Assembly: GCF_000520515.1 (NCBI RefSeq)
Contig: NZ_KI914726.1
Location: 15,180 to 54,005, forward strand
Length of the DNA: 38,826 nt
From: Arthrobacter sp. H20
GTDB lineage: Bacteria; Actinomycetota; Actinomycetes; Actinomycetales; Micrococcaceae
Direction of reading: 5' to 3'
Below are positions 1 to 17,385 of this stretch, piece by piece (the first letter of the stretch is position 1; every line of letters begins with the position of its first letter). The notes below the pieces were generated by a model, which was not told the DNA's origin, did no database searches, and saw only the letters and a program-made list of their open reading frames with translations. Made by a program: the position numbers and the translations under genes.

Positions 1-586
1 CCAGCCACTGGGACCGGCGGGTCTCGGCTTCGAAGAGCCGCATGTTCTCGATGGCTACCCCTGCCGCGGCCGCAAGCGCCACAGTAAGTTCCTCGTCGGA
101 CTCGCTGAAATCACCGCCGCCGTTTTTTTCGGTGAGGTACAGATTGCCGAAGACTGTGTCGCGCACCCTGATTGGTACGCCAAGAAATGACGTCATCTGT
201 GGATGACCCGCCGGGAAGCCAAACGCTGCCGGGTGTTGGCGTAGGTCCTTGAGGCGAAGCGGCCTTGGCTCCCTGATCAGCAAACCGAGCACCCCGTGCC
301 CCACCGGTAACGCCCCAATCTGCGCGGTCTGGTGCTCATCCAGTCCCACTGTGATGAAGTGGTTCAAGACGCCGTCCGGCCCGATGACGCCAAGAGCTGC
401 AAACTTCGCATCGACCAGCCGGCAGGACGCCGCCACTACCCGCTCAAGGACTGTCTGCAAACCCTGGTTCTCGGCCAGCGCCGCAAATCCGGCCAGAAGG
501 TGGTCTACGCCGCCGTGGACCATCGAGCTTATGGATTCAGTCCCCCCGTCGGGGCCAGCAACCCGGGTGGTTCGTTCGGCGCTCAT
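1..586 (-). CDS. DevS/DosT-like GAF-domain sensor kinase, N-terminal part
   Basis: Reading the minus strand from an ATG at 586 gives an open frame of about 195 residues that runs off the left edge. Residues about 40-190 read as a GAF domain: LERVVAASCRLVDAKFAALG, then a TSFLGVPIRVRDTVFGNLYL stretch and an ALAAAAGVAIENMRLFEAE helix. These are the usual landmarks of the first GAF domain of DevS/DosT-type oxygen and redox sensor kinases, which normally go on to a second GAF, a HisKA_3 and an ATPase domain, all outside this window. A GGAG ribosome site 7 nt before the ATG supports the start. A GAF-only protein or a diguanylate cyclase with GAF domains cannot be excluded. Its position beside a DevR-like box fits the sensor of the regulon described here. 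Confidence 0.8.
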   Translation of the reverse strand, partial: MSAERTTRVAGPDGGTESISSMVHGGVDHLLAGFAALAENQGLQTVLERVVAASCRLVDAKFAALGVIGPDGVLNHFITVGLDEHQTAQIGALPVGHGVLGLLIREPRPLRLKDLRQHPAAFGFPAGHPQMTSFLGVPIRVRDTVFGNLYLTEKNGGGDFSESDEELTVALAAAAGVAIENMRLFEAETRRSQWL

Positions 587-674
587 TGTGCGGCTCCAGT
601 GAGTTGAACCCCGAACCTTCAATCCGTCAACGTGCTGGATGTGAAGGCGCCTGCGTTAACTAACCCGGCGAATA

Positions 675-2023: not shown

Positions 2024-3078
2024 TACAGTGGCGCCTTGTGGGAATCCGGCACGATGACAGCGCGTCCACGAAGGGTACCGGCACGCAGTCGCTCATACGC
2101 GGCGGGCGCCTCAGACAGCGGGAACTCCTCGACTTCAACGCTAATTTTTCCTGAGCGCGCCAACTCCACCACTTCCATCAACTCCGATCTGGACCCCCAG
2201 TAGGGGGCCCGGGCCTCGGCGTCCCAGGGCGTGGAAAAGAATCCGACGTCGACAGTGCCGACGCCGACGCCGACAATGGCGATGTCCCCACCAATACCCA
2301 CTACCCGTGAAGCGAAACTGGTCGTCACTGGGGCACCGACAAAGTCGAAGACGGCGGCGGCACCCTTGCCACCGGTCAGGTCGCGGATCTGCACTTCGGC
2401 GTCCTCCCCGGGAGGCAGCGCATGGTCCGCGCCGACGTCGAGGGCGAGAGCCAATTTTTGCTTTGACGTGTCGACGGCGACGATCGTCGTGGCGCTCAAT
2501 GCACGGAGGATCTGTACACCGACATGACCGAGACCGCCCACACCGATGACCACCGCCGTCGAGCCCGGCACCAATTTCGCCAGGCTCTGCTTGATGGCGT
2601 GATAGGGGGTCAACCCGGCGTCGGTCAGCGACACACTGGCAACCGGATCGAGGTCACCCAGTGGCACCAGATGACGGGGGTCATCAACAATGAGATACTC
2701 AGCCATCGCCCCAGGGGCCCCGAGTCCGGGAGGTTTGATCCCCTGCGTCGCGGCCACCTCACAGTAGTTTTCCCTGCCCTGGGCGCAGGTGTAACAGCGC
2801 CCACAACCCCAGGGCCCGTAAACCAGCATCGCGTCGCCAACCAGAAGCCCCGACACCCCCGCACCCCACGACTCGACGGTGCCAGCTCCCTCGTGCCCCA
2901 GAGTGAGGGGCAGCCCATAGATGTACTGATCCTCGGGGAGGTCCATGATGAACTGGTCCGAGTGACACGCTCCGGCCGCTGTGACACGCAGCAGGACCTC
3001 ACCTGGACCCGGCACGGGCACTGGTACGTCTACAAGTTCGGGTGCGGCACCAACAGTGCGGTACTGCAGTGCCCTCAC
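2023..3078 (-). CDS. Zinc-dependent NAD-linked alcohol dehydrogenase (MDR family)
   Basis: A 351-residue medium-chain dehydrogenase that interconverts alcohols and aldehydes or ketones. Catalytic zinc ligands are visible as Cys38 (CHSD) and His62-Glu63 (GHEGAG); four structural-zinc cysteines sit at 92, 95, 98 and 106. The Rossmann motif GVGGLG is at 179-184, and Asp203 at the end of the second strand suggests NAD rather than NADP. The length is normal for the family. The gene overlaps the upstream universal stress gene by 4 bp and the downstream one by 1 bp, so the three form one tightly coupled operon behind a DevR-like box. That context suggests a fermentative or redox-balancing role under low oxygen. 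The real substrate cannot be told from sequence. Confidence 0.92.
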   Translation of the reverse strand: MRALQYRTVGAAPELVDVPVPVPGPGEVLLRVTAAGACHSDQFIMDLPEDQYIYGLPLTLGHEGAGTVESWGAGVSGLLVGDAMLVYGPWGCGRCYTCAQGRENYCEVAATQGIKPPGLGAPGAMAEYLIVDDPRHLVPLGDLDPVASVSLTDAGLTPYHAIKQSLAKLVPGSTAVVIGVGGLGHVGVQILRALSATTIVAVDTSKQKLALALDVGADHALPPGEDAEVQIRDLTGGKGAAAVFDFVGAPVTTSFASRVVGIGGDIAIVGVGVGTVDVGFFSTPWDAEARAPYWGSRSELMEVVELARSGKISVEVEEFPLSEAPAAYERLRAGTLRGRAVIVPDSHKAPL

Positions 3079-3533
3079 GAATACTCCCCCGCCGGTTCCC
3101 CGGCCGGTCCCTCAACCACAAGGACTGGGCATTTGGCATGCGCTACGCAGGCGCCGCTGACTGACCCCATCAGCAGTCCCCGGAAACTCCCGTGTCCCCG
3201 TCGTCCCAGCACCAGCATGACCGCTCCCTCAGCGGCCTTGACCAGCCCCTTTGACGGGTGGGAAAAGACCACCAGCTTCTCCAGACCCTCAGGGGGGTCC
3301 TCGCCATAGGCCGCCTGCACTGCCGTATCCAGCCGCTTCTGGGTGATCTCGTCGAAGTTGTCGCTCCCGATCGGCACATACCCGGCGTATTCCGGTGGGT
3401 AGTCCCAGGTACTGATGGCCTGGATCACCGCTCCGAAGGGCGGCGCAACCTTCCGGGCGAACCGCAGTGCAGCAATTGATTGTTCGGAACCGTCAACACC
3501 CACAACGATCCGGGGCGAGTTGGATTCTTCCAT
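3075..3533 (-). CDS. Universal stress protein, single Usp domain
   Basis: A 152-residue Usp protein. It starts with the ATP-binding strand RIVVGVDGSEQSIAALRFA and ends with LGRRGHGSFRGLLMGSVS, the G-2x-G-9x-G-S nucleotide-binding signature, followed by CVAHAKCPVLVVE. The ATG at 3533 is supported by GGGAGG 6 nt upstream. It is the first gene of an operon with the alcohol dehydrogenase and a second Usp gene, about 75 bp downstream of a DevR-like box. The signature implies ATP binding; the partner or target is unknown. Confidence 0.92.
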   Translation of the reverse strand: MEESNSPRIVVGVDGSEQSIAALRFARKVAPPFGAVIQAISTWDYPPEYAGYVPIGSDNFDEITQKRLDTAVQAAYGEDPPEGLEKLVVFSHPSKGLVKAAEGAVMLVLGRRGHGSFRGLLMGSVSGACVAHAKCPVLVVEGPAGEPAGEYS

Positions 3534-3578: not shown

Positions 3579-3622
3579 AGTGTCGCCTGCCGGTGTGGTT
3601 TGGCGTTAGGGTCTTTGGACCC
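3579..3622 (-). promoter_or_regulatory. DevR-like box and -10 element before the Usp-Adh-Usp operon
   Basis: On the minus strand the box reads GGGTCCAAAGACCC (3622-3609). A 24-nt gap leads to GACACT (3584-3579) followed by GGG. The box overlaps the last codons of the upstream DUF1003 gene. The stretch after the -10, GGGGTAGCTGCTGCAATCCT, is nearly the same as that of the promoter at 7310-7353, so the two leaders share an origin or a function. Confidence 0.65.
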
Positions 3623-4112
3623 CTTCCGCGGCGCTTTGGACCCCGTTCGTCTCGGATGCCGTGTCCCGGCGTTCTTGGGTAACCGCTCGGTCAGTGGATT
3701 CGTTCGCCTCACTAGTGGCTACGGCCCTGAGCTCCTGCAGAATTTCCAGCTGTTGAGCATTGATGGCCATCAGCATCTCAATCTCTTCCTTCGACTTGAG
3801 ATTGGTTTCGAAGTCGTGCTGGGCCATGGCAGCAGAGATGGCGTCTTGTCTTTTCGCGGCAATGAGGAGAATGGCGCCCTGGAGCCCTGCCAGCATCGAG
3901 AGCAGAAGGTTCAGGAGGATGTACGGATACGGGTCCCAGGCTTCGGCGGCAAGAGCCCAGGTATTGATTCCAGCCCAGATCAGCATGAAGCCGATGAAGC
4001 CTCCCACGAAGGGCCAGCTTCCCATCCCATTCCGCAGGACATCGGCTGCGCGTTGGCCGGAGGTCAAGGAGGATTTGTGCTTCTCGTGCCAGGTTTTATG
4101 GTGAACGCTCAT
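3606..4112 (-). CDS. DUF1003 membrane protein
   Basis: A 168-residue protein of the DUF1003 family. It has an ADVLRNGMGSWPFVGGFIGFM segment leading into a first membrane helix (about 32-55), a WDPYPYILLNLLLSMLAG motif typical of the family, and a second helix (about 63-85). A soluble tail rich in charged residues follows (about 90-168), with a likely helix KSKEEIEMLMAINAQQLEILQELRA. Its function is not known. It overlaps the P-type ATPase stop by 4 bp, so the two are translationally coupled and may work together at the membrane. The last codons contain the DevR-like box of the next operon. Confidence 0.88.
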   Translation of the reverse strand: MSVHHKTWHEKHKSSLTSGQRAADVLRNGMGSWPFVGGFIGFMLIWAGINTWALAAEAWDPYPYILLNLLLSMLAGLQGAILLIAAKRQDAISAAMAQHDFETNLKSKEEIEMLMAINAQQLEILQELRAVATSEANESTDRAVTQERRDTASETNGVQSAAEGVQRP

Positions 4113-6586
4113 GACACAGACCCATGCTCAAGTGCGTCCGGGTTAAGACGCTGACGGTGGTACCGGAACAGTACTTCCACCGCGACGGCGCCAGCGAGCG
4201 CTACCACCGCGGAGGCGGCCAGGTGGTTCCACCCGGGCATTGTGAAGTCAAAGAAATCCCTGAGGGGTGGCACCACCAGCACGAACCCGAGGGCGGCCCA
4301 CATAGCGGCAATGATCAACACCCGCCAGCGGTTCAGCGGGCGGGATAGCACCACCAGTACCCACAGGGCGATGAGGGCCAGGACGAGAGCTGAAGCTGTC
4401 CGTTGCTCGGCGGTAGTGCTCGATCCCTCCCACAGCGAATAGGTGTTGATGGTGAGCACGGCGAGCGCGATGATGAGCCCGGCGGGCACGGCGAATGACA
4501 ATGAGCGTTTCAGGAATCCGCTTCGATAACGTCGAGCGTTGGGCATCAGCGCCAGGAAGAATGCGGGTATCCCGATGGTGATGCCATCAGTAGCCGACAA
4601 CTGGCGCGGCAGGAACGGAAAGTCCCAGAGCAGTGCGCCAAAGGTTATCGAAATGATCACCGCGTAGGCGGTTTTGGCCAGAAACAGCATGGAAACCCGC
4701 TCGATATTGGCGATCACCCGACGCCCCTCGGCCACGACGCCCGGAAGCCTGTCGAATTGCCCATCAAGCAGCACGAGCCTGGATACCGCCTTTGTCGCTG
4801 CCGCTGCCGAGTCCATGGCAATCCCGATATCCGCCTCCTTAAGCGCCAAAGCATCGTTAACTCCGTCACCGGTCATGGCCACCACATGCCCTCGTCGTTG
4901 CAGCGCCCGGACCATATCCTTCTTCTGGGCCGGTGTAACCCGACCAAATACCGTATGGCGGTCCATCACTTCAGCCATTTCTTCTTGATCGTCGGGGAGC
5001 TGGCGGGCGTCGAACCCGCCATCGGTTGTCACACCGACCTTCCTGGCTACTGCTGCAACGGTCCGCGGATCGTCCCCGGAAATAATCTTCACCTCCACGC
5101 CCTGTTCCTTGAAGTAGGACAGGGTCCGCGCTGCGTCGGGGCGGACCTTTTCCTGAAAAGTGAGCAGAACCGCTGGAGCGTGATCAGTCGGAAGCTCCAC
5201 TTCGACGTCGTCCCCGATGAGCAATGCGCCGGGGGCGTGTGCCAGAACCAGCGTGCGTAACCCAGAGGCGGCAAGAACGGCAGCCGTCTCAAGTGCCCGG
5301 CCGGCGTCGGGTTGCTTTGGGTCAAGGACCATCTCGGGGGCGCCCAGTAGCCACGTCCCGGCAGCCGGCGTGCCGTCGGAGAAGCTCACAGCGCTCCACT
5401 TCCTGGCGGAGGAAAACGGGACTGAGGAGAGCGGTCGAAGCGAACCTTCGTCGCGGAATTCCGCGGATAGGCAGCGCGCCGTGGCGTTGGCGTTCGGGTC
5501 AGCGCCAAACCAGCCGAGAGCCTGCTTCCATCCGGCCGGCGGGGTATTGCCCGTGTCATGGACCGCGTCGAACACGATCTTGCCTACGGTCAGTGTTCCG
5601 GTCTTGTCCAGGCACAGCATGTCCACCCGGGCGAGCCCCTCTACCGCGGCAAGCTCCTGGATGAGCACTTTTTGGCGTGCCAGCCGGACGGCGCCGACAG
5701 CAAAGGCAACGCTCGTCATCAGCACCAGGCCCAACGGAATCATGGCGATGACGCTCGCGACGGCGCCCACTGCTCCGATTCGCCAGGTTCCTGTTGTGAT
5801 GGCAACCTGCCACCCTCCCTGGCTTTGCATCTGTCCGTTGATGACAATGGCCATCACGGGCAGCAGTGCCAGGGTAATCCACCGCAGCACCTGATTGAGA
5901 CCCTGACGAATCTCAGAATGGACCAGTGAGAAGCGTTTGGCTTCCGCCGTCAGTTTGCTTGCGAAGGACTCAGCACCGACCCGGGTGACTACCGCCCTGC
6001 CTTGTCCGCTAACCACGCTGGAACCGGACAACACTTCGGCGCCGACGTCCTTCCCGACAGGTTCCGATTCCCCGGTGAGTAACGATTCATCGACTTCCAG
6101 GCCACTCGCCTGCACCACCGCCGCATCGGCGGTGACTTGATCTCCAGCGCGAAGCACCAACACATCATCTTTGACGACTTCCTGAACATCAATATCCTGA
6201 ACAACCCCGTCCCGGAGCACCCGGGATCGCGGAGCATTGAGGACAGCGAGTCGGTCAAGGGATTTCTTGGCCCTGTACTCCTGCACCACCCCGATTAACG
6301 CGTTCCCGACGGCGGCGAAGCCGAAGAGCGCATCCCGCCATTGACCGAGGATAAGAAGCAATACGAAGCTTCCGGCGACGATGGCGTTGAACAGGGTGAA
6401 AACGTTGGCCCTGAAGATCTCCCACAGGCTGCGGCTGGATTGATCGGGAGCATCGTTGGTCAAGCCGCCTTTGACGCGCACTGCCACGTCGGCGGCGGAG
6501 AGCCCGATCCGGTCGGGTCCATCAGCGGCGCGGATAGTCGTCTGCCCCGGCTCTCCTATCCCGCTCCCCGGGATGCGGGACGTCAA
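4109..6586 (-). CDS. CtpE-like P-type cation ATPase with altered M4 motif
   Basis: An 825-residue P-type ATPase. Visible motifs are TGES (171-174, actuator), DKTGTLT with the phosphorylated Asp327, GAPE (415-418) and TGDGVND (572-578). Membrane helices lie near 60-100, 232-300 and 630-815. From memory it matches mycobacterial CtpE, a calcium transporter, in order and in details such as SLWEIFRANVFTLFNAI and VAFAVGAVRLA. The M4 metal-binding motif, PEGL in CtpE and in calcium pumps, reads PLGL here (284-287), so the acidic ligand is missing and the transported ion is doubtful. The start is a TTG with a weak ribosome site and is uncertain by tens of codons. It lies in an operon with a zincin upstream and DUF1003 downstream. 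Confidence 0.88.
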   Translation of the reverse strand: MTSRIPGSGIGEPGQTTIRAADGPDRIGLSAADVAVRVKGGLTNDAPDQSSRSLWEIFRANVFTLFNAIVAGSFVLLLILGQWRDALFGFAAVGNALIGVVQEYRAKKSLDRLAVLNAPRSRVLRDGVVQDIDVQEVVKDDVLVLRAGDQVTADAAVVQASGLEVDESLLTGESEPVGKDVGAEVLSGSSVVSGQGRAVVTRVGAESFASKLTAEAKRFSLVHSEIRQGLNQVLRWITLALLPVMAIVINGQMQSQGGWQVAITTGTWRIGAVGAVASVIAMIPLGLVLMTSVAFAVGAVRLARQKVLIQELAAVEGLARVDMLCLDKTGTLTVGKIVFDAVHDTGNTPPAGWKQALGWFGADPNANATARCLSAEFRDEGSLRPLSSVPFSSARKWSAVSFSDGTPAAGTWLLGAPEMVLDPKQPDAGRALETAAVLAASGLRTLVLAHAPGALLIGDDVEVELPTDHAPAVLLTFQEKVRPDAARTLSYFKEQGVEVKIISGDDPRTVAAVARKVGVTTDGGFDARQLPDDQEEMAEVMDRHTVFGRVTPAQKKDMVRALQRRGHVVAMTGDGVNDALALKEADIGIAMDSAAAATKAVSRLVLLDGQFDRLPGVVAEGRRVIANIERVSMLFLAKTAYAVIISITFGALLWDFPFLPRQLSATDGITIGIPAFFLALMPNARRYRSGFLKRSLSFAVPAGLIIALAVLTINTYSLWEGSSTTAEQRTASALVLALIALWVLVVLSRPLNRWRVLIIAAMWAALGFVLVVPPLRDFFDFTMPGWNHLAASAVVALAGAVAVEVLFRYHRQRLNPDALEHGSVS

Positions 6587-6670: not shown

Positions 6671-7264
6671 TCATCTCGCAGCACGGGAAATCTTCGGCAC
6701 GAACACATGAATTTGATTCCCATCATCCTTAACCAACGCATCCTGTGGCTGCCGGAGCAGGACGGCGACCTCGACGTAGTCGCCGGCCGAACCAGCAAAG
6801 TTCAGAGTCAGGAGAATGTAGGCGCTCAACAGATAGTCCTGCGGAACTGTGAGCTGCGCTGCGATGAGCACTATTCCCCAGATAATGGCTGGCGCGACGG
6901 TGACAGCCACTGCATTCTGGCGAGTGAGATAAGCGCGGTTGCCGGTGGTCAGAAACGGAAATCGAAAGGCGTAGGTGGGCTTCACTTTCGTCACCGCTTG
7001 CAGGACTACGCCGTGCGTTGCTTCGTGAATCGCCATGTAGGCGAGGCAAGCACCCAGCGTGATTGGGATAGTGAAGGCGGGAGTCCAGCTCGTTCCCAGA
7101 GGCAGTTCCAAGAGGAAAGCGGCTGCCACGGAGCCCAGAACAACCAGCGCAAAAATCAGTTGGATGGTGGTGGCTAACTTTCGGTCCTTCTTGAAATCGA
7201 CGCTACGATGCGTCCGATAGCTGGACGGCAATTCAGTAGTGTCCCGCAGCGGTGCAGACGTCAT
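6671..7264 (-). CDS. Membrane zincin-like protein (DUF3267 type)
   Basis: A 197-residue membrane protein with a HEATH zinc-protease motif (HExxH) inside AYMAIHEATHGVVLQAVTKV, following two hydrophobic helices. Two or three further helices follow, with a conserved-looking NFAGSAGDYVEVAVLLRQP segment that could supply the third ligand (Asp or Glu). DUF3267 proteins are thought to be integral-membrane metallopeptidases but their targets are unknown. The start at 7264 is chosen over longer options because GGGAAGG lies 7 nt upstream and a DevR-like promoter lies at 7310-7353. It is first in the unit with the P-type ATPase and DUF1003 gene. An ion-pump-associated protease role is only inference. 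Confidence 0.8.
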   Translation of the reverse strand: MTSAPLRDTTELPSSYRTHRSVDFKKDRKLATTIQLIFALVVLGSVAAAFLLELPLGTSWTPAFTIPITLGACLAYMAIHEATHGVVLQAVTKVKPTYAFRFPFLTTGNRAYLTRQNAVAVTVAPAIIWGIVLIAAQLTVPQDYLLSAYILLTLNFAGSAGDYVEVAVLLRQPQDALVKDDGNQIHVFVPKISRAAR

Positions 7265-7310: not shown

Positions 7311-7353
7311 AGTCTCACCCGCGGTGCACCCAGGCGTAAGGGTCTTTGGTCCC
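7311..7353 (-). promoter_or_regulatory. DevR-like box and -10 element before the zincin-ATPase operon
   Basis: On the minus strand the box reads GGGACCAAAGACCC (7353-7340), the cleanest copy in the window. A 23-nt gap leads to GAGACT (7316-7311) followed by GGG. The start codon at 7264 is 75 bp from the box, the same distance as in the promoter at 3579-3622, and the leader GGGATGGCTGCTGCAATACT is shared with it. Confidence 0.68.
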
Positions 7354-7507
7354 GCGCCACCATAGGGTGTGCCGTGATGGACGAACATTGGAGGTGGGTG
7401 ACCTTGCGGAGTACCACGACTAAATCTTTGAGGGATGGCTCAATGGCTACGGTGCACGACCAGTACAGCCGGCCGGCACCGCGAGCTCCCAGGGCTTTCC
7501 TCTCAAG

Positions 7508-9687: not shown

Positions 9688-9730
9688 GGGACCAAAGCCC
9701 CTGTGAGCTTCCAGCCGATCAATGGATGCT
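9688..9730 (+). promoter_or_regulatory. DevR-like box and -10 element before a Usp pair
   Basis: The box GGGACCAAAGCCCC (9688-9701) is followed after 23 nt by GATGCT (9725-9730) and GGG. Predicted transcription begins near 9737, about 56 nt before the ATG at 9793. This argues that the longer open frame upstream of 9793 is not translated. Confidence 0.65.
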
Positions 9731-13544: not shown

Positions 13545-13616
13545 AGTGGTCCGGAACGATGAGGGTCAGTTTCCGGACTAAAGGCCCTACCAGCGCCGAA
13601 TCAGCGAAGCTACAGT
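13545..13616. promoter_or_regulatory. Bidirectional DevR-like promoter
   Basis: The box CGGACTAAAGGCCC (13574-13587) has a -10-like hexamer at 23 nt on both sides: TACAGT (13611-13616, plus, followed by GGG) and ACCACT (13550-13545, minus, followed by GGG). The plus side reaches the ATG at 13623 after 6 nt, so that gene is probably leaderless. The minus side leads to the phosphoketolase. Confidence 0.65.
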
Positions 13617-14547: not shown

Positions 14548-17385
14548 GTTCGCCTGATCCAACAGTTGCGCCAGGTGGATACCCTTGCGGTCGCTCAGAT
14601 CCTCCAGCTGGGTGCGGCAGGAGTAACCATCGGCCAGCACGACGTCGTCGTCGCCCGCTCCGCGCACGGCGGGGAGGAGCTGCTGCTCGGCTACCGCCAC
14701 TGAGATGTCATAGTGGCCGCGCTCCACACCGAAGTTCCCGGCGAGACCGCAGCAGCCACCAAGTTTCTGCAGTGTGGCGCCGGCCTCTTCGAGGAGCGCT
14801 GCGTCGGGGCTCCAACCCATGACCGCATGGTGGTGGCAGTGCGGTTGCGCCACAACTGTGATCCCTTCAAGTGACGGCGGCGCGTAGCCGGGGGTCTTCC
14901 CAAGGAATTCAGCGAGGGTGTGCGTTGCGGCGGCCACCCGGCCGGCCGTCGCCTGCCCCAGCAGTTCGACGGCGTCCGAACGAAACACACCGGTGCAGGA
15001 CGGTTCCAGGCCGACGATCGGAATGCCCCGGTCCACCGAGGTGCCCAACACTTCGATGCTTGACCGCAGGATCTTCCGAGCCGAATCGAGCTGACCGGTG
15101 GAGATCCAGGTGAGACCGCAGCATACTGGAGTGTCGGGGATCAGCACCTCGTAGCCAGCAGCCTCCAGCACTCGTACCGCTGCCTGGCCCACTTCCGGCG
15201 AGAAGTTGTTCGTAAACGAATCGGCCCAGAGCAGCACCGGCGGGCGTCCGGTGTCCTCGGTGGTTGGACGGGAGTTGAACCAGGCGTGAAAAGTCTGCGG
15301 CGCGAACAAGGGAATGGAGCGCCGCTGGTCGATGCCGGCCAGCCGGAGCCCCAGCTGGCGTACACCGGGCAGCCGGAGCACCGCGTTCACTAGTCCCGGA
15401 GCAAATGACGTGAGCTTTGCCCAGCGCGGCAGCCAGCCCAGCGAGTAGTGCGAGGCCGGGCGGATCCTGCCCTTATGGCTCTGGTGCAACACCTCGGCCT
15501 TGTAGGCGGCCATGTCGATCCCGGTGGGGCAGTCGGAGGCGCAGCCTTTGCAGGAGAGACAAAGGTCCAGGGCCTCATGCACCTCGGGTGCACGCCAGTT
15601 CGGCCTGGTGCCCTTCGCCCCGCCGGTGACGGAGCCGTTGATCATTTCCTGCAGCACCCGGGCCCGGCCGCGGGTTGAATCTTTTTCCTCACGCGTCGCC
15701 AGGTAGGACGGGCACATCACCGAACTGTTGTCCGCGTGGGAGGCCCGGCACAGCCCTACCCCGGTGCAGCGGTGCACCGCCTGGCTGAAGTCGCCGTCGT
15801 CGTGCAGGTACCCAAAACCCAGCCCCGATCGCAGCCGGCCTGCTTCGGCGACCCGGACGTTCGCGTCCAGCGGTTCCGGGTTGACCAGGATGCCGGGGTT
15901 GAGGATGTTGTCCGGGTCGAGGATGCCCTTGACCTTGCCGAAGAGCGAGATCGCAGCGGGCGAGTACATGTAGGGCAGGAGTTCGCTACGGGCCCGGCCG
16001 TCCCCGTGCTCCCCGGAGAGCGAGCCACCGTAGCGAGCGACCAATTTCGCGGCGTCGATGAGGAACGCCCGGAACCCGGCGGTGCCGTCATGCCCCAAAG
16101 GGAAATCGAGGCGGATATGGACGCAGCCGTCGCCAAAGTGTCCGAACGGGAATCCGGTCAGGTGGTGAGTGAGCAGCAGTTCGTCGAATTCGCGGAGGTA
16201 ATCGCCCAGCCGTTCCGGTGGAACGGCTGCGTCTTCCCAACCGGAGTGGGCGGGCGCGCCCGCCGGGGACCGGCCCGCCAGACCACCGCCGTCCTCCCGG
16301 ATCCGCCACAGGGCGAGCGCTTCCCGTGGGTCGGTGATGATCAGCGCGTGCGTGGCTTCACCGATGGCACTGAGGCGGCCTGCGCGATCGGCGACGTCGA
16401 CGTCGTCGTCCCCGGAGATCTCCACGAACAGCCAGGCCGCACCACCAGGCAGTTCGGGGACCGCCTGCGGTCCCTTGCGGCTGCGGACCACCTCCACGAT
16501 GCGCGAGTCCAGGCCCTCGCAGGCGGTGGGGTGGAAGGGCAGGACGCTGGTGACCGCGTCGCCAGCGTCGCCGATGGTCTCGAATCCGAGCACCACAAGG
16601 GTCTTATAGGGCGCATCGGCGACCAGCCGAACTCCCGCTTCGAGCACGACGGCGAGGGTGCCTTCGCTGCCCACGAGCGCCCGCCGCAGATCGAAGCCAC
16701 GCTCCGGCAGCAGGTGTTCGAGGGAATAGCCCGAGACCTGACGACCGAACCGTCCGAGTTCGGTGCGGATGGTGCCGAGCTCTGCACCCACCAGCGAGCG
16801 CAGCGCGTCGGTTTGCGGCGACGACGGTGTGCCGTCCGCGCCGAGGTGAAGCCGGGTGCCGGAGCCGGTGACGACGTCGAGCTGGGTCACGTTGTCGGCG
16901 GTGCGGCCATAGGCGAGTGCCCTGGATCCGCAGGCGTTGTTACCGATCATCCCACCGACGGTGCAGCGAGTATGGGTGGACGGATCAGGCCCGAAGCGCA
17001 GTCCGTTCGCCAGGGCCACCTTCTGGAGGGTGGCGTGCACTGTGCCGGGTTCGACGACGGCGGTGCGGGACGCGGCATCGAACTCAAGGACCCTGTTCAG
17101 GTGACGGCTGAAGTCGATGATCACGCCGGATCCAATGGAGTTTCCTGCGAGGGAAGTACCGGCGCCGCGAGAGGTGAACGGGATTCCTCGCTCCCTGCAG
17201 ACCTCGAGGGTGGCGAGCACCTCGTCGAGATGCCTTGGGAAGACCACGGCTGTGGGCTGCACCCGGTACAGAGACGCGTCGCTGGAGTAGACGGCCCGGG
17301 AGGTTGCATCGGTCCTCGCGTCGGGAACGCCCCTGGCATGAAGTTCGGAGACCAGGGAGGTGGGTGCTGTGAGCGTCGTCGCCAT
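14539..17385 (-). CDS. FAD-binding and Fe-S-binding 2-hydroxyacid dehydrogenase (D-lactate/D-2-hydroxyglutarate type)
   Basis: About 948 residues, fusing a flavin part and a GlpC-like part. The FAD-binding PCMH domain shows FPRHLDEVLATLEVCRERGI and SRGAGTSLAGNSIG (about 50-105). The substrate domain has HLTGFPFGHFGDGCVHIRLD near 410. The ferredoxin part has CTGVGLC and CLSCKGCASDCPTG for two [4Fe-4S] clusters (about 530-625), followed by two CCG domains (CCGLTW near 755; LGGCCGLAGNFG near 890). It should oxidise a D-2-hydroxyacid and pass electrons to the respiratory chain at the membrane. I prefer the ATG at 17385; an ATG six codons upstream (17403) lies in the operator palindrome. The divergent GntR regulator and MFS gene suggest regulated uptake and oxidation of one substrate. 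Confidence 0.9.
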   Translation of the reverse strand: MATTLTAPTSLVSELHARGVPDARTDATSRAVYSSDASLYRVQPTAVVFPRHLDEVLATLEVCRERGIPFTSRGAGTSLAGNSIGSGVIIDFSRHLNRVLEFDAASRTAVVEPGTVHATLQKVALANGLRFGPDPSTHTRCTVGGMIGNNACGSRALAYGRTADNVTQLDVVTGSGTRLHLGADGTPSSPQTDALRSLVGAELGTIRTELGRFGRQVSGYSLEHLLPERGFDLRRALVGSEGTLAVVLEAGVRLVADAPYKTLVVLGFETIGDAGDAVTSVLPFHPTACEGLDSRIVEVVRSRKGPQAVPELPGGAAWLFVEISGDDDVDVADRAGRLSAIGEATHALIITDPREALALWRIREDGGGLAGRSPAGAPAHSGWEDAAVPPERLGDYLREFDELLLTHHLTGFPFGHFGDGCVHIRLDFPLGHDGTAGFRAFLIDAAKLVARYGGSLSGEHGDGRARSELLPYMYSPAAISLFGKVKGILDPDNILNPGILVNPEPLDANVRVAEAGRLRSGLGFGYLHDDGDFSQAVHRCTGVGLCRASHADNSSVMCPSYLATREEKDSTRGRARVLQEMINGSVTGGAKGTRPNWRAPEVHEALDLCLSCKGCASDCPTGIDMAAYKAEVLHQSHKGRIRPASHYSLGWLPRWAKLTSFAPGLVNAVLRLPGVRQLGLRLAGIDQRRSIPLFAPQTFHAWFNSRPTTEDTGRPPVLLWADSFTNNFSPEVGQAAVRVLEAAGYEVLIPDTPVCCGLTWISTGQLDSARKILRSSIEVLGTSVDRGIPIVGLEPSCTGVFRSDAVELLGQATAGRVAAATHTLAEFLGKTPGYAPPSLEGITVVAQPHCHHHAVMGWSPDAALLEEAGATLQKLGGCCGLAGNFGVERGHYDISVAVAEQQLLPAVRGAGDDDVVLADGYSCRTQLEDLSDRKGIHLAQLLDQANRL

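Follow-up and report, generated by a model that had tools for sequence, protein, structure and literature searches.

How a P-type ATPase might handle a cation after losing the acidic residue of its fourth transmembrane segment (M4) is the question raised by a stretch of 38,826 nucleotides from Arthrobacter sp. H20 (contig NZ_KI914726.1), here called the window, whose base 1 is contig base 15180. The window encodes a CtpE-like ATPase in which the M4 motif of CtpE, PEGL, reads PLGL. The most plausible reading is that this protein is an active CtpE-group pump whose single ion-site carboxylate has moved, within site II, from M4 to the sixth transmembrane segment (M6), and that it is encoded in a zincin-pump-DUF1003 operon probably under the control of DevR/DevS. 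This reading draws on the loss of an acid in M4, the gain of one in M6, the mutual exclusion of the two, and a near-constant lysine, Lys638, in the fifth segment (M5).

The unusual motif is firmly placed (Table 1). The minus-strand codons CCG TTG GGC CTG occupy 5737-5726, with the TTG of L285 at 5732-5734, in agreement with an earlier sequence-only reading that had put PLGL at residues 284-287. PLGL precedes DKTGT, and alignments set L285 opposite the Glu of PEGL/PEAL in P2A pumps and LMCA1, its counterparts being Glu309 of SERCA and Glu292 of LMCA1, which rules out a misplaced motif. A sequencing error at these codons is likewise ruled out by a near-identical protein (99% identity) in a second genome, the named record Arthrobacter sp. 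H5, and by Leu in 72 further distinct aligned relatives. The P-type ATPase superfamily motifs DKTGT, TGES and GDGVND are all present in the 825-residue protein, so the sequence-only reading was also correct in holding that the motifs for ATP-driven cycling are intact. Because these motifs are intact and the ion site is conserved, the protein is taken to be an active cation pump.

Relatives were gathered from overlapping surveys of 38 genomes of the genus, 395 of the family, 396 of the order, 296 of the class and 396 of the phylum. All 38 genomes of the genus gave matches at E 1e-3, with a close relative (53-100% identity) in 8 of them, the remaining matches being other P-type ATPases. At higher ranks, matches were found in at least 184 of the 395 family genomes (E 1e-150), at least 108 of the 396 order genomes and 124 of the 296 class genomes (both at E 1e-120), and at least 134 of the 396 phylum genomes (E 1e-100). 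A part of the matches among those listed made up a first set of 221 distinct rows, the query included, in which the M4 residue is Leu in 74, Gln in 33, Ala in 2, Glu in 108 and Asp in 4. PLGL is a recurring group among the matches listed, and the PLGL pump is a real, conserved variant that belongs to the P6 group or lies near it. Named PLGL records are those of Arthrobacter, Pseudarthrobacter, Leucobacter and a single Micrococcaceae bacterium; the remaining PLGL rows are from genomes that share the window's genus, family or order. The PEGL rows share 31-59% identity with the window pump, and the nearest named row from the Mycobacteriales, from Tsukamurella (L265), shares 44.7%. PLGL and PEGL rows were placed in one tree, which contained neither a named CtpE nor members of other P-type families.

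The loss of the M4 acid is accompanied by a gain in M6. In the 221-row set, Asp stands at position 667 in all 73 readable Leu rows (one further Leu row is gapped there), in both Ala rows and in 24 of the 33 Gln rows, that is, in 99 of the 108 readable rows with a non-acidic M4, and in none of the 112 rows whose M4 residue is Glu or Asp. A scan of residues 40-814, minus 285 and gappy columns, found the strongest link to M4 acidity at 667 (frequency difference 0.92), followed by 445 (0.81) and 92 (0.79). The pattern had first been spotted by eye, and hence a held-out set of 68 loci was drawn whose motifs were unseen beforehand (60 from genome surveys, 8 from plasmids; 67 readable). Here Asp667 was present in 0/49 rows with an acidic M4 and in 8/18 non-acidic rows, namely 6 of the 16 Gln rows, the sole Ile row and the sole Lys row. 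In the combined set of 288 rows (221 plus 67), Asp667 accompanies an acidic M4 in 0/161 rows and a non-acidic M4 in 107/126; it is present in 77/77 readable Leu, Ala, Ile or Lys rows and in 30/49 Gln rows. Seven duplicates, L001 (identical to the query) and L263 (no single pump reading frame) were dropped before counting, and L113, gapped at 667, and L286, masked at 638, were omitted where those letters were needed. The other 19 Gln rows are PQGL pumps, for example L203, L245, L261 and L283, with neither the M4 acid nor the M6 Asp. A column scan of these 19 rows for a compensating acid found no column acidic in more than six of them, and none convincing in the transmembrane segments.

The sequence-only reading had described an ion site lacking its acidic residue. 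Its observation on M4 holds, but the site is not acid-free: since Asp667 is present in every readable PLGL row, an ion site without an acid is not supported as it was worded. The suggestion attached to it, that the pump carries a different ion or serves another purpose, appears weakened by the same 73 of 73 readable PLGL rows.

Alignment to pumps of known structure indicates where Asp667 would lie. The M5-M6 region aligns without gaps to SERCA, pairing Thr639 with Asn768, Ala642 with Glu771, Asp667 with Asn796, Thr670 with Thr799 and Ile671 with Asp800, in what we take to be the SERCA numbering. Comparison by hhalign with seven P2A-type pumps gave the same M5-M6 register, and the alignment to LMCA1, with a one-residue gap in M5, agrees with it in M6. 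According to the available text of a study of LMCA1, its Ca2+ sits between M4 and M6 at the equivalent of SERCA site II, Asn716 is the primary Ca2+-coordinating side chain, and Glu292 is flexible and may take up a proton (PMC11977196). From this placement and the alignment register, both acid-trading positions belong to site II. In the PLGL pump, one cation would be held at the site-II place, between the M4 backbone carbonyls and Asp667, and Asp667 would stand in for the M4 Glu in gating and proton exchange. An AlphaFold model (19 rows) has a mean predicted local distance difference test score (pLDDT) of 77 and a predicted template-modelling score of 0.63; block means of pLDDT are 60 at residues 281-290 (M4), 82 at 631-640 (M5), and 83 and 72 across 661-680 (M6). 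Structure comparison returned the common P-type fold, with Z scores of 27-32 over the best 50 entries and SPCA1, SERCA, MgtA and LMCA1 among the first (about 28-32).

These data bear on the idea that the protein cycles without moving any ion, the loss of the M4 acid having produced a flippase-like or regulatory protein. P4 flippases carry a hydrophobic residue in their M4 motif, as the PLGL pump does. The M5 lysine completes this outline, a role for such a lysine being described for P4A pumps in the part of a 2023 review available to us (PMC10654040). Yet an M6 Asp in every readable Leu, Ala, Ile or Lys row would be needless on a path for hydrophobic substrates. Cation pumps also head the structure comparison, a weak point, since a flippase and a polyamine pump reach Z 28 as well. 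A pump that carries no ion is accordingly considered very improbable.

The M5 lysine deserves attention of its own. Lys638 is present in 285 of the 288 rows, the others being one masked row and two with Gly, and it presumably matches Lys791 of the H,K-ATPase. The two Gly638 rows (L290 and L291), which are 67% identical to each other, have Asp in M4 and are the sole rows with Arg667, so that the basic residue seems to have moved there from M5 to M6. Position 671 is Ile, Leu or Val in 285 of the 286 complete rows and Glu once, in a row from an Enterococcus gilvus plasmid (L262 2986-5292) that combines Lys in M4 (PKGL) with Asp667 and Glu671; this pump is a version with a four-charge pocket. Of the 286 complete rows, 267 have charges at 285, 638, 667 and 671 that sum to zero; in the other 19, all with Gln, the sum is +1, and no other value occurs. 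As position 671 was included after the Enterococcus row had been seen, and the rows are related, this sum is a regularity to test and not a statistic. For several other families, the available part of the review names a basic residue in this segment as the supposed built-in counter-ion (PMC10654040). A charge-balance rule for P6 pumps may be offered tentatively, as a proposal we think may well fail: one built-in ion pair, whose acid and base hop among M4, M5 and M6 at zero sum, with Gln as the intermediate. The patterns E-K-x, L-K-D, D-G-R and K-K-D-E would all fall under it.

The coincidence of L285 and D667 could also reflect shared ancestry alone, the two residues being functionally unlinked. 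Nearly all Leu rows come from one order, and columns 445 and 92 diverge between the classes as well, if less than 667. Against this stand the absence of Asp667 from every row with an M4 acid and its distribution on a FastTree tree of the 288 rows, built after removal of the four site columns. Parsimony places eight gains of Asp667 on this tree, all within lineages with a non-acidic M4, and beyond the Leu group it arises in seven further lineages with Gln, Ile or Lys in M4. Six gains lie outside the largest non-acid clade, in a part of the tree where 18.0% of the branch length is non-acid; were gains random by branch length, six of six would occur with P of about 3e-5. The same test on the 221-row tree gave four of four gains (8e-4).

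In an approximately unbiased (AU) test on a 68-row subset, a single clade of all 40 non-acid rows was not rejected (p 0.737), the tree constrained in this way having a log-likelihood 14.4 higher, a result that favours the ancestry explanation. The FastTree tree nests 17 PEGL rows within the non-acid group, a quick subset tree nests 10 of them, and the 288-row tree has two returns to acid (23 and 18 rows), which are regarded as unreliable. A reversal from L/D to E/S is not claimed, because the AU test keeps the all-non-acid clade viable. Gln looks like a stepping stone, from Gln without Asp to Gln with Asp and then to Leu or Ala with Asp. Weighing both sides, we give scarcely any credence to ancestry as the whole explanation and retain the move of the carboxylate from M4 to M6.

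Comparison with known families places the pump nearest to CtpE. In the available text of the 2023 review, CtpE and other P6 ATPases have PEGL in M4, CtpE has Ile in place of the M6 Asp of Ca2+ efflux pumps, and P6 ATPases have no conserved Lys at the ATP site of the N-domain (PMC10654040). The window pump departs from the first of these features with PLGL at 284-287, shares the second with Ile671, which aligns with the Asp of N-x-x-x-D in M6, and shares the third, having LGAPE where a P2A relative has KGAP. It is thus like CtpE and the P6 group (family 23) in these features, in the P-type motifs and in belonging to the same sequence group, and unlike CtpE, as known from its published description, in having PLGL for VPEGL and Asp at 667, and in its DevR-type neighbours where CtpE has a Ca2+-regulated operon. 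With the P2A Ca2+ pumps SERCA, LMCA1 and SPCA1 it shares the fold and, by alignment, the site-II register, but L285, D667 and I671 stand where P2A pumps have the M4 Glu and the Asn/Asp ligands of M6; it lacks the M4 Glu, Glu771 of M5 and Asp800 of M6, and has Asp for Asn796 and Lys638 in M5.

The ion is a matter of graded guesses. Ca2+ or another divalent cation is the first guess, at slightly under even chances, because CtpE of Mycobacterium smegmatis mediates uptake of 45Ca2+ in cells; the M. tuberculosis orthologue restored uptake to the mutant, according to the available part of that study (PMC5615198). A neutral pocket of one carboxylate and one lysine would also suit H+ or another monovalent ion, the second guess, held with about one chance in three in its favour. 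A rival reading makes the PLGL form a P3A-like pump for protons or monovalent ions: it would work with no M4 acid and one M6 Asp, to which a basic residue of M5 would salt-bridge, expelling the proton. P3A proton pumps such as AHA2 and Pma1 have an M4 without an acid, as the PLGL pump does. They also rely on an M6 Asp and an M5 Arg, as the available review text has it (PMC10654040), for which Asp667 and Lys638 in their net-neutral pocket would be counterparts, and the P3A proton-pump model TIGR01647 scores highest among the NCBIfam models, though its 289.4 bits fall far below the cut-off of 615.5. The alignment to the P3A pump 5ksd stops before M6. However, Asp667 lies opposite SERCA Asn796 and not Asp800, and the net-neutral pocket is shared by PEGL relatives, the VPEGL-bearing CtpE having taken up Ca2+ (PMC5615198). 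A P3A-like pump is therefore regarded as unlikely, and a cation pump with a relocated site-II carboxylate remains the preferred reading.

Table 1. Features of the pump gene and its surroundings (window positions unless a locus is named)
Feature	Position	Strand	Remarks
P6/CtpE-like P-type ATPase, PLGL form, 825 aa	4109..6586	(-)	TTG start as listed
TGES (residues 171-174), A-domain phosphatase motif	6065..6076	(-)	
M4 motif P284-L285-G286-L287	5726..5737	(-)	PEGL in CtpE; from sequence and alignments
Asp327, Asp in DKTGT	5606..5608	(-)	
M5 Lys638, proposed built-in counter-ion	4673..4675	(-)	opposite the Ser preceding SERCA Asn768
M6 Asp667, proposed relocated carboxylate	4586..4588	(-)	opposite SERCA Asn796 / LMCA1 Asn716
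M6 Ile671	4574..4576	(-)	SERCA Asp800 position, by alignment
DUF3267 putative zincin peptidase	6671..7264	(-)	ATG at 7264 the probable start, preferred over listed GTG at 7417
DUF1003 protein	3606..4112	(-)	ATG overlaps pump stop (ATGA)
Universal stress protein, same island	3075..3533	(-)	
DevS-like kinase, N-terminal GAF part	1..622	(-)	runs past the left edge of the window (L266 15022-15801)
DevR-like regulator	L266 13260-13940		left of the window; receiver and LuxR-type
DevR/OsdR-like palindrome GGGTCTTTGGTCCC	7340..7353	.	75 bp before zincin ATG 7264, the probable operon start
Second palindrome	3609..3622	.	75 bp before universal stress gene; overlaps 3' end of DUF1003 gene
Third palindrome	9688..9701	.	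91 bp before universal stress gene (ATG 9793)

The surroundings of the pump gene (Table 1) suggest when it might be used. The DUF1003 gene is probably translationally coupled to the pump, because the two overlap in ATGA, and the zincin gene is the probable first gene of a zincin-pump-DUF1003 operon. The pump gene shares an island with DevR/DevS (DosR-type) genes at the left edge of the window, and the identity of this two-component system is supported by its best solved matches, which are DevR (3c3w, E 4.5e-62) for the regulator and, for the GAF piece, 2vzw, a "probable histidine kinase response regulator" (E 1.9e-47), followed by DevS chains (E 1.7e-43 to 2.3e-42). The reading of the DevS-like kinase (L266 13971-15801) is split between two frames, and a stretch of masked bases lies close to where they join. 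Judged from its neighbours and from sites in the sequence, the operon is probably turned on by DevR/DevS acting as a DosR-type system of hypoxia or dormancy, and the island may be one dormancy regulon.

At the loci that supplied the 221 rows, devR is present in 21 of 74 PLGL cases, 2 of 112 with an acidic M4 and none of the 35 others; for a universal stress or PNPOx gene at a distance of up to 1.5 kb, the counts are 32 of 74, 3 of 112 and none of 35, respectively. These neighbour counts are descriptive, as stretch lengths differ and the rows are related. PLGL loci are not alone in this association, given the two acidic-M4 loci that have devR, and the absence of devR from the 35 Gln or Ala loci shows that the association does not track the M6 Asp as such. 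The connection between PLGL, DUF1003 and the zincin that was raised by the sequence-only reading is local and is rejected as a general one: DUF1003 lies within 1.5 kb at 4 of 74 PLGL loci, and the zincin at 2 of 74, which are the window and a near-identical strain.

The palindromes resemble published sites of Streptomyces OsdR, which in the available text have the consensus core GGGNC-N4-GNCCC, lie at, for example, -81, -99, -100 and -102, and precede osdR and genes for a nitroreductase, a universal stress protein and pyruvate phosphate dikinase (PMC5069765). A stricter palindrome, with a Y-T-T or A-A-R centre, shaped on the window's own sites, matches 22 times in 73 PLGL loci, where 1.0 match is expected, and never in 147 others; 5 of the 22 come from the window locus and the near-identical strain, and several others from near-identical pairs. 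The narrowest stricter form occurs three times in the window, with 0.03 expected. The OsdR core as published is not in excess in 72 PLGL loci (46 matches, 55 expected) and gives 48 matches in 112 acidic-M4 loci, where 101 are expected, and a pattern like that of M. tuberculosis gave 4 matches against 3.4 expected. A weaker DevR-like palindrome lies at window positions 13574-13587, 80 bp before a phosphoketolase gene.

Other copies of P6 pumps were noticed on the way. The window's own genome holds adjoining fragments (G000:C55:22505-22830, within L267), 71% identical to pump residues 64-116 and 52% to residues 7-64; both carry a stop. They adjoin P2A-type ATPase sequence and look like what is left of a second pump gene of the P6 type. 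A same-genus PLGL pump (G025:C5:76820-79197, of which L013 contains part) is read as two pieces, the N-terminal of which contains a stop. On a plasmid of Burkholderia contaminans (L258 4980-8753), a PEGL P6 pump is annotated as a single coding sequence of 1257 residues, preceded by a resistance-nodulation-division efflux operon and followed by an LssY-domain gene. A C-terminal extension of this pump is suggested, because the match ends about 500 residues short of the end of the coding sequence.

Several points weigh against an active pump with a relocated carboxylate under DevR/DevS. The contact of residues 285, 638 and 667 is a prediction from alignment to solved pumps. The 19 of 49 Gln rows without Asp667 mean that the M4 acid can vanish without a replacement in M6. 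An independent-pair test on the 221 rows points in the same direction as the parsimony counts (on average 3.9 pairs in favour, none opposite and 3.1 tied) but is not significant, with a median p of 0.125; the trees come from FastTree or quick searches, and the parsimony counts ignore tree uncertainty. The sample is narrow, nearly all rows coming from the window's own phylum; beyond it lie three rows from plasmids of Burkholderia, Monoglobus and Enterococcus, and four uncultured rows of unknown phylum (L053-L056). In the window, the OsdR core palindrome is about as frequent as chance predicts, with 3 found and 2.7 expected. Finally, literature searches found no transport, ATPase or expression data on a PLGL pump. 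Nor did they find a paper on M4 loss in P6 pumps or on a carboxylate relocated within them.

The 2023 review asks by what means P6 pumps turn Ca2+ transport the other way round (PMC10654040). If the charge-balance rule were true, the family would be a natural experiment in the rewiring of ion sites in P-type pumps, the neutral pocket would imply either transport coupled to protonation or an ion that is not simply Ca2+, and the PLGL branch would contain a DevR-controlled dormancy pump. For the family as it stands, PEGL is not universal among close P6 relatives, the lost M4 acid has repeatedly been replaced at one defined position in M6, and the M5 lysine is close to invariant. Three residues for mutation, with natural variants for comparison, are now defined, and one branch of the P6 pumps is connected to genes for the regulation of hypoxia and dormancy.

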